Both the position numbers and the translations under genes were made by a program. Below are positions 2,961 through 4,002 of a DNA stretch of 22,491 nt, piece by piece (the stretch's first letter is position 1; the number at the start of each line of letters is the position of its first letter). The notes under the pieces were generated by a model. The model did no database searches and was not told the DNA's origin. It saw only the letters and a list, made by a program, of their open reading frames with translations. Origin of the DNA: a virus; IMG/VR virus record IMGVR_UViG_3300044516_000118, positions 1 to 22,491 of that record; one strand, given 5' to 3'.

Positions 2961-3134
2961 ATGCCCAAGATAGCAGACCATACCTATGATGAGGCACTGC
3001 TATCTAGTAAATGTATGGCAGGTAAGCACAAAGAATGCGGTGGTATCGTGGTCATCGGTATCCGTGCATTAAGGAGACAGTGTGCTTGCCAATGCCATCT
3101 CACATCAGAGCAATCAGATACCCGTTCTATCTGA
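2961..3134 (+). CDS. Small zinc-finger-like protein
   Basis: A 57-residue protein starting just after the previous stop; the RBS is weak, so it may depend on coupling. It has C19-(x7)-C27 as CMAGKHKEC, and then C41-A-C43-Q-C45-H46. Small proteins with a C..G.H..C.G..........C.C.CH pattern are, as I recall, frequent in actinophages and are probably zinc-binding. Its role could be as a DNA-binding or transcription adaptor, but this is inference. Its 3' half overlaps another short frame (3082-3168) that has a much better RBS, and its stop lies 15 bases before a terminator-like hairpin. Confidence 0.6.
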   Translation: MPKIADHTYDEALLSSKCMAGKHKECGGIVVIGIRALRRQCACQCHLTSEQSDTRSI

Positions 3135-3168
3135 TACACTCTGCCTACTGAGATGGGCTGGAGTTTGA
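3082..3168 (+). CDS. Candidate leader peptide ending inside a terminator hairpin
   Basis: A 28-codon frame starting with GTG and ending with TGA at 3166-3168. It is preceded by AAGGAGACAGT at exactly the spacing used by the gene at 856. It lies in a different frame from the zinc-finger gene it overlaps. The stop falls in the loop of the hairpin at 3150-3197, so a ribosome finishing here would cover the left arm of the stem. The encoded peptide (ANAISHQSNQIPVLSDTL, then CLLRWAGV) shows no run of a single amino acid. It could be a chance frame, but the RBS match is notable. Confidence 0.35.
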   Translation: MLANAISHQSNQIPVLSDTLCLLRWAGV

Positions 3169-3197
3169 TTAGTCTCCTTTTCCAGCCCGTCTCTTTT
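3150..3197 (+). terminator. Intrinsic terminator / attenuator candidate
   Basis: The left arm GAGATGGGCTGG (3150-3161) pairs with CCAGCCCGTCTC (3182-3193) over 12 positions, with one G:U pair. A 20-base loop lies between, and TTTT follows (3194-3197). It lies inside the rightward operon, only 20 bases before the ATG of the exonuclease gene, so there is no room for a new promoter behind it. The loop contains GTCTCCTT (3172-3179), the exact complement of AAGGAGAC (3200-3207), the next gene's Shine-Dalgarno. GGAG at 3160-3163 can also pair with CTCC at 3174-3177, giving an alternative fold. Confidence 0.65.
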
Positions 3198-3216
3198 ACA
3201 AGGAGACAAGGGAAAT

Positions 3217-4002
3217 ATGAAAATAGAAATAGAACGTGATAGGTACGGACGACCATTAATAATTCCTAAAGCAGGAGGCAAGCCAGTTGCTTACACAAGA
3301 GCAACTACAATTGCCAACAGTTTAGATGACGGCTCAGCACTAACAGCCTGGAAGATGCGTATGGCTGCAATAGGTTTAACAGTACGCAATGATTTACTAC
3401 TAGCCATCAGCGCAGCAGGCGATGACAAGATGGCTATTAACAAGTTGATAGAAGATGCTATGGAAGTAGCAGGCGCTAGCCGTGCAGCCAGTATCGGCAC
3501 AGCACTACACGCAATAGCAGAGAAACTAGATTTGGGACAGTCACCTGGCCCAATACCAGACGAATGGGCAGGGGACATCCGAGCCTATGAACAAACAACA
3601 GGACATCTCAAGAAATTCTTTATAGAACAGTTCTGCGTGTTGGATAAGTACAAGATTGCTGGTACTCCCGACAGGATAATTGAATATAAAGGTGAGAAGT
3701 TCATTGCAGATATAAAGACTGGTCGCATTGACCATCCCAATAACATTGCTATTCAGTTAGCAATTTACGCCAACGGCTCCCCGTATGACGTTGCTACGGG
3801 TCGCCGTGGTAGTTGGGGTGATATCAATAAAGAAAAAGCAGTTATCATCCATCTTCCAGCAGGAACTGGTCTATGCAAATTAGTTTGGATAGACATTAAA
3901 GAGGGCTGGAAAGGAGTACAATTCGCAATGAAAGTAAGACAGTGGCGAGACAAGAAAGGTCTCGTTACTCCATTTGAAGAACAGGAGACAATCAGTGGCT
4001 AG
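3217..4002 (+). CDS. PD-(D/E)XK nuclease, RecB/Cas4-like exonuclease
   Basis: A 261-residue protein with the motifs of the RecB-like branch of PD-(D/E)XK nucleases, in order: GTALHAIAE with His98, AGTPDRI with Asp152, FIADIKTG with Asp165 and Lys167, and QLAIYA with Gln180. These residues bind metal and form the active site in RecB/AddB/Cas4-type nucleases. It probably resects DNA ends during phage recombination or replication. The RBS is AAGGAGACAAGGG, directly behind the hairpin at 3150-3197. The downstream zinc-ribbon gene starts within its last eight bases. The ATPase, resolvase and primase genes follow, a typical actinophage replication block. Confidence 0.88.
   Translation: MKIEIERDRYGRPLIIPKAGGKPVAYTRATTIANSLDDGSALTAWKMRMAAIGLTVRNDLLLAISAAGDDKMAINKLIEDAMEVAGASRAASIGTALHAIAEKLDLGQSPGPIPDEWAGDIRAYEQTTGHLKKFFIEQFCVLDKYKIAGTPDRIIEYKGEKFIADIKTGRIDHPNNIAIQLAIYANGSPYDVATGRRGSWGDINKEKAVIIHLPAGTGLCKLVWIDIKEGWKGVQFAMKVRQWRDKKGLVTPFEEQETISG

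Follow-up and report, generated by a model that had tools for sequence, protein, structure and literature searches.

The stretch of DNA analysed here, referred to as the window, comprises positions 1 to 22,491 of the IMG/VR virus record IMGVR_UViG_3300044516_000118. From an ATG at position 3217 it carries a gene for an exonuclease of the PD-(D/E)XK/Cas4-like type, which matches phrog_466 (E 6e-62) and further phrog_298, with a PDDEXK_1 match slightly below cut-off, and which is preceded by a gap of 82 nt. Downstream lie a gene with a sub-cut-off match to L5 gp49, a DnaB-like helicase, a RusA-like resolvase and parts of a primase, so the leader precedes a replication/recombination cassette. A tblastn search with the exonuclease returned 522 phage records, foremost among them those of Mycobacterium (261), Streptomyces (187) and Gordonia (49), none with an exonuclease match at 60% identity or above; we infer an actinobacterial host. 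In three annotated isolated phages the exonuclease gene either overlaps the gene in front of it or begins 1 nt past its end, which leaves no such leader there, and a DNA search of isolated phages gave three weak partial matches only, covering 17–22% of the query. One scan of genome contigs for cellular homologues yielded 34 stretches that matched the pattern, none of which codes for a relative.

The 82-nt gap and the end of the preceding ORF would together form a leader of two tandem hairpins, P1 and S1 (Table 1). The S1 hairpin has 13–14 bp and a predicted energy of -25.4 kcal/mol, and its fold in the window beats 200 of 200 shuffles (z -3.2); for the longer stretch 3095–3235 the z-score is -4.35. 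Both P1 and the hairpin occur in the leaders of five relatives, each of which likewise folds better than all of its shuffles (z -2.9 to -5.1). All 69 distinct clade-A and all 64 distinct clade-C segments of 61 nt at the position of P1 form at least 8 pairs (the clades are defined below), a count that accepts any pairs and stands without a shuffle control.

Table 1. Features of the exonuclease leader in the window (SD, Shine-Dalgarno)
Feature	Position	Strand	Basis
P1, upstream leader hairpin; contains the stop codon of a 57-aa ORF (3132–3134)	3106–3143	+	fold
S1, 5' stem strand	3150–3162	+	fold; covariation in relatives
L1, first part of the loop, GTTTGATTA; resembles TTTTG in many relatives	3163–3171	+	
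Anti-SD loop core GTCTCCTT; proposed 5' strand of pseudoknot helix S2	3172–3179	+	
S1, 3' stem strand	3181–3193	+	fold; covariation
L3, linker TTTTAC, the U-tract of the earlier note; T-run not conserved in relatives	3194–3199	+	
Distal SD-like motif AAGGAGAC; proposed 3' strand of S2	3200–3207	+	
Proximal SD-like motif AAGGG, 4 nt 5' of the ATG	3208–3212	+	
Exonuclease gene, PD-(D/E)XK/Cas4-like type; proposed controlled gene	3217–4002	+	phrog_466 and phrog_298 matches; tblastn

Scans for loci with relatives of the exonuclease, each returning the best 80, revealed three leader groups among the relatives listed. Clade A, which contains the window, has the hairpin, as does clade C (at least 158 loci, with 61–65% exonuclease identity to the window), and clade B, at about 73–77% identity, has a leader of a different kind without the hairpin; the hairpin is thus retained in exonuclease relatives down to about 61% protein identity. 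In the first scan the loop core lies within 75 nt 5' of the exonuclease gene in 77 of the best 80 loci, the exceptions being L036, which has no upstream sequence, and L079 and L080, which belong to clade B. A second set of 374 exonuclease-matching loci among the matches listed, 16 of which were left out for too short an upstream sequence, contains 130 distinct leaders: 80 with TCTCCTT, 48 of the clade-B type and 2 others. The 74 distinct clade-C leaders divide into 67 with TCTCCTT, 6 with TCTCTTT and one with unrelated upstream sequence (L474). The hairpin is missing in L474 and L406, and these two, L382 (whose start the script misplaced) and the 48 distinct clade-B leaders make up the misses of the leader sets. 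Many loci are repeat fetches of identical contigs, and distinct sequences were counted where possible.

By its covariation, the stem of the S1 hairpin is shown to be a genuine RNA structure. In MAFFT alignments built without structure, the 31 clade-A sequences (87.6% of cells paired) have changes on both sides of 10 of the 12 S1 pairs, and the 25 clade-C sequences (98.7% paired) on both sides of 4 of 6. The covariation score of the whole structure was equalled by none of 500 shuffles in either clade and drops sharply in slid registers in both; the mere count of pairs with changes on both sides was matched by 9 of 500 shuffles in clade A and 51 of 500 in clade C. Two outer clade-A pairs, 17–62 and 19–60, are unpaired in 15 and 13 of the 31 rows, partly as a result of alignment shifts. 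Unaided, RNAalifold recovered the inner 9 of the 12 clade-A pairs and, in clade C, the 6 pairs together with 3 outer ones; it also places two intraloop pairs that touch the anti-SD core.

The earlier note had called this hairpin a terminator, and in the window the GC-rich stem, the strength of the fold and the CTTTTAC that follows it do give that appearance. The label does not carry over to the relatives: a run of at least four T follows the stem in 22 of 64 distinct leader rows and is lacking in the other 42, at least five T in eight are found in 24 of 64, the loop is conserved, and the hairpin stands close before an SD-like motif in the leaders read. We therefore consider it very improbable that the hairpin is an intrinsic terminator or attenuator between operons whose loop complementarity arose by chance. 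Termination as a common function was rejected on the ground that the U-tract is not conserved. A terminator consensus scan did not list the window hairpin, which that scan's loop limit of 8 excludes anyway.

The loop core GTCTCCTT is the exact complement of the SD-like motif AAGGAGAC, as the earlier note had reported and at the positions that it gave. Among mono-shuffled loops, 344 of 50,000 had eight contiguous bases complementary to the 3' part of the leader, and outside the leader 90 of the window's 22,473 18-mers match that 3' part equally well; the complementarity of loop and motif is not fortuitous. The motif itself recurs: AAGGAGAC occurs six times in the window where 0.43 are expected (one of the six being the loop itself, on the other strand), and GGAGAC 12 times where 6.6 are expected (4 of 100 shuffles as high), so that the label of standard ribosome-binding site (RBS) of the phage is fair for the 8-mer but weak for the 6-mer. 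The loop also resembles the 3' end of 16S rRNA, both being anti-SD sequences, and mimicry of that end was hence considered.

Among relatives, the complement is retained even where the motif differs. The sets of distinct leaders were selected by the loop core (TCTCCTT or TCTCTCTTT), and loop conservation is therefore inflated in them: TCTCCTT stands in all 64 distinct rows thus selected (55 of clade A, 9 of clade C). Within 90 distinct loop/motif combinations from core-selected leaders, all 90 reach 7 or 8 contiguous pairs when G-U is allowed, and 74 do so with Watson-Crick pairs alone. In the alignments, 97.2% of S2 cells are paired in clade A and 97.6% in clade C, with no both-side changes in S2 among the 31 clade-A or the 25 clade-C sequences. 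The predicted energy of loop with motif is stronger than that of the 16S tail with motif in 59 of 62 combinations (-12.9 versus -8.3 kcal/mol in the window). The three misses are TCTCTTT loops, which in six clade-C leaders form 7 contiguous pairs with AAGGAGA, one of them G-U, weaker than those of the 16S tail. The loop thus appears able, as the earlier note had supposed, to cover the SD-like motif in cis. When partners were shuffled across the pooled leaders, 123 of 5000 shuffles were as strong as the real pairs; this is the one cis shuffle test that points towards co-adaptation. Shuffling within clades left the pairing undiminished (2793 of 3000 shuffles at least as strong for GTCTCC loops and 1478 of 3000 for CTCTCC loops), as did a repeat shuffle of the cis pairs at clade-A loci (1964 of 2000), and cis co-adaptation beyond the common SD core is therefore not demonstrated by these comparisons. 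Of two single leaders, L426 (CTCTCCTT with AAGGAGAG) is consistent with compensatory change and L563 (CTCTCC with GGAGAC) is not. CTCCTT pairs with any SD, so conservation of the core could have a different cause.

Alternatively, the hairpin could be an operator bound by, for example, the exonuclease or a DNA-binding partner, its loop being kept for protein contact and its SD complementarity being secondary. As in hairpin operators, the stem is free to vary in sequence while the loop and its U-rich L1 part are kept; no covariation is seen in S2; and there is a precedent in T4 gene 43, which uses a hairpin operator (PMC3014915). Against this, what clades A and C have in common in the loop is the anti-SD core, with TGATTA missing from clade C and from L379, L360 and L408, and the SD motif keeps its place relative to the hairpin. 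We regard an operator of this kind as unlikely, at perhaps one chance in five.

Distances along the leader bear directly on this point. The spacing set of 116 regions, from which 2 without a start and 10 duplicates were dropped, includes 51 distinct leaders of clade-A type, defined by loops without CTCTC and so taking in L429, L431 and L505 from the other exonuclease clade. In these the loop core lies 20.0 ± 1.3 nt from the motif (range 18–26) and GGAG lies 11.4 ± 3.0 nt from the start (range 4–16); without the three outsiders (48 leaders) the values are 20.0 ± 0.9 and 11.9 ± 2.4 nt. In the 53 clade-C leaders the core-to-motif distance is 25.8 ± 1.1 nt and the motif-to-start distance 4.1 ± 0.3 nt, with the motif 4–5 nt from the start in all 53. 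With the distance from hairpin to motif constant and that from motif to start variable, it is the hairpin and not the start codon that places AAGGAGAC in the window's clade, which supports a pseudoknot and weakens the description of this motif as the exonuclease RBS. The motif is indeed SD-like, but in the window 11 nt separate its GGAG from the ATG, and AAGGG is nearer and better spaced. A second, proximal SD-like motif is found in 40 of 45 leaders of the window's clade with a spacer of at least 7 nt, compared with 14.5 on average and at most 24 when spacers are shuffled, and none of 200 spacer shuffles pairs equally well with the 16S tail. Four of the six clade-C leaders with TCTCTTT loops (L466, L467, L475 and L503) have an exonuclease start of GTG rather than ATG, as though a weakened loop were accompanied by a weakened start.

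A further rival would hide the SD motif by the base of the stem (GTCTCTTT, 3189–3196, with AAGGAGAC) in a simple local hairpin, leaving the loop out of it. This is what the nested minimum-energy fold of 3095–3235 draws, and with G-U allowed 16 of 38 clade-A-type combinations give 6–8 contiguous pairs between stem base and motif, and 3 of 52 clade-C combinations give 6. Such pairing costs the outer stem, however, and its Watson-Crick runs with the motif, L3 included, are 2–5 nt in all 90 combinations, short of the 7–8 that the loop reaches in most of them; moreover, a near relative has a changed version of CCATCTCA, the upstream partner on which the release of the stem base depends in that fold. 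We think this arrangement improbable, nearly as much so as termination.

The loop may also have targets elsewhere. Against the 42 starts of the window, its predicted pairing is strongest at 2517 (-14.9 kcal/mol), followed by 1296 (-13.4) and then by the exonuclease and 20398 (both -12.9). Part of the clade-A loop, TTAG, is unused in cis pairing and matches the RBS of another gene. It could be that the loop acts as a long-range or trans antisense on other RBSs of the phage, chiefly that of the gene two upstream (2517–2957; 146 aa), alone or beside the cis motif. In the window the loop TTAGTCTCCT pairs over 10 bases with the RBS of that gene (AGGAGACTAACAATG, 2505–2517), and at 39 clade-A loci with an orthologue the RBS matches 8–11 loop bases, a match longer than that of the exonuclease motif in 31, equal in 6 and shorter in 2. 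Matches of at least 9 bases occur in 24 of 32 distinct cases, compared with 22 of 52 other SD-bearing starts of the same loci; GGAGACTA is present at the upstream RBS in 25 of 32 cases with TAGTCTCC loops and in 2 of 7 with other loops (Fisher p 0.02, uncorrected for relatedness); L360 and L357 follow by one base, and L378 matches 10 bases on the other side. Such pairing would account for the conserved TTAG, which cis pairing does not. Yet co-change is not clear, since 103 of 2000 partner shuffles equalled the real pairs in length of match and 503 of 2000 in strength; L012, L333, L340, L399, L405 and L423 keep the loop without an extended RBS match; GGAGACTA also stands at the RBSs of other genes (9 of 39 distinct GGAGAC RBSs); and, for action in trans, there is no conserved terminator to release a short RNA. 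In clade C, loop matches to upstream RBSs are generally shorter. Taken together, these observations leave a long-range role doubtful, and rather more so than a protein operator.

The association of the leader with the exonuclease gene is real, in its conservation as in its specificity. Among 793 SD-bearing gene-like starts (the window and L001–L080, both strands, duplicates kept), 39 have a hairpin of at least 9 pairs with at least 6 anti-SD loop bases, and 38 of these are exonuclease starts; counted as distinct hairpin-bearing starts, the exonuclease accounts for 15 of 16. The screen recovered 38 of the 78 exonuclease leaders present, probably through its limit on SD spacing. Of at least 120 stretches with the exact loop 15-mer, 117 were examined: in 58 the exonuclease gene follows, all 58 with a stem of at least 10 pairs, and of the 59 among the matches listed that do not precede it, one (L132, which has no exonuclease) has such a stem. 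The combination of this stem with an unrelated loop, which the earlier note had named as evidence against its proposal, was not seen before the exonuclease gene among the leaders read, and was found before a different gene in six relatives. There a covariance model run on 61 sources detected a second similar hairpin (E 7e-5 to 3e-4), 3.3–4 kb upstream of the exonuclease gene, whose loop, TACCTGC, is not anti-SD. These hairpins (L023:1288–1364, L026:1175–1251, L108:341–416, L033:1050–1126, L076:969–1046 and L077:1145–1221) stand directly 5' of an SD, AGGAGACTAA, of a small gene, with a similar GGGCTGG stem and a conserved TACCTGC loop; an anti-SD loop is thus no automatic companion of a hairpin that precedes an SD.

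With the stem, the conserved loop, its conserved complementarity and the tie to the exonuclease gene established, we infer that loop and purine motif pair into an H-type pseudoknot ahead of the gene and that the leader controls translation in cis, a reading which, on comparative evidence, we hold to be somewhat better than an even bet. The anti-SD loop of the second hairpin would pair with AAGGAGAC a few nucleotides past the stem, and the pseudoknot so made from S1 and S2 would close just 5' of the start codon, lowering access of the 30S subunit and hence translation of the exonuclease until it is opened, whether by the binding of a protein, by passing ribosomes or through the kinetics of folding. 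For the window's clade, the motif that pairs may serve as a distal or decoy SD, and the SD that works may lie just beyond it. As the sign of control, repression is more likely than masking of a decoy SD; it is the simplest reading and the natural one for clade C. Geometry speaks against S2, in that L3, at about 3–9 nt by eye, is short for a stem of 12–13 bp, and a rough A-form estimate, in which the groove labels are probably swapped, likewise finds L3 tight. The RNAalifold pairs inside the loop, the stem-base pairing of the minimum-energy fold and the exonuclease relatives that lack the hairpin (clade B, L474 and L406) also count against this reading. Cis control, a protein operator, long-range pairing, termination and occlusion by the stem base can coexist, and the likelihoods that we attach to them need not add up to one.

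Clade B, as noted above, lacks the hairpin, and a compact pseudoknot RNA (consensus GNTGGGTGGTCCCGCNANCNGCGAACACGGGAC) lies 5' of its exonuclease gene. Sites of this type include L586:4858–4913 (- strand), L390:1833–1888 and L101:3802–3857 (- strand), and the RNA is also found 5' of other early genes, among them the window-DUF932-like gene and the MNTI gene. In 26 sequences all 286 of 286 pair cells are standard; one stem pair appears as A-U, G-C, C-G and U-A and is the sole pair with changes on both sides; no frame is open in more than one of 84 contexts; and the RNA has no Rfam match. It is a candidate riboswitch-like or protein-binding element, and perhaps of greater interest than the exonuclease hairpin leader. 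More boldly, one might imagine a new class of phage riboregulator, a leader of two hairpins in which the anti-SD loop chooses between the distal decoy and proximal working SDs of the exonuclease and, in clade A, the RBS two genes upstream, thereby timing the replication/recombination cassette, while a sister clade uses another pseudoknot RNA before the same gene; we offer this as a speculation with the odds well against it.

If cis control by a pseudoknot is correct, a conserved RNA gates translation of the exonuclease in uncultivated phages with an actinobacterial-phage-like exonuclease, and a further phage lineage, beside that of the T4-type gene 32, places a pseudoknot over a gene of DNA metabolism. 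The leader is small, self-contained and testable with reporters, and the tandem-SD spacing gives a sharp prediction. At gathering score Rfam gave no matches in the window, L384, L281, L360, L426 or L508, and at E up to 10 only three weak, unrelated ones; no description of the leader was found in searches of the open-access literature.

The leader would work like known SD-controlling pseudoknot leaders. Riboswitches of the preQ1 and SAM/SAH kind need conserved pocket bases. The preQ1 and SAM/SAH riboswitches resemble the exonuclease leader in being H-type leader pseudoknots tied to SD access (PMC10622847, PMC7367207), but they bind ligands, and the exonuclease leader has a long variable stem, no sign of an aptamer and no Rfam match. 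The rpsO (S15) pseudoknots of Escherichia coli and mycobacteria lie at or near the initiation site, the mycobacterial one upstream of it, and limit translation (PMC10931766); they differ in belonging to a cellular gene with a ribosomal-protein repressor. A further precedent is the gene 32 operator of T4, T2 and RB69, which is likewise a pseudoknot in a phage mRNA leader that serves translational control of a gene of DNA metabolism. In T4 the gene 32 pseudoknot occupies a region 67 nt upstream of the start, where it is proposed to nucleate gp32 along an A+U-rich RBS that is free of structure, whereas in the exonuclease leader the partner of the loop would be the SD motif itself.
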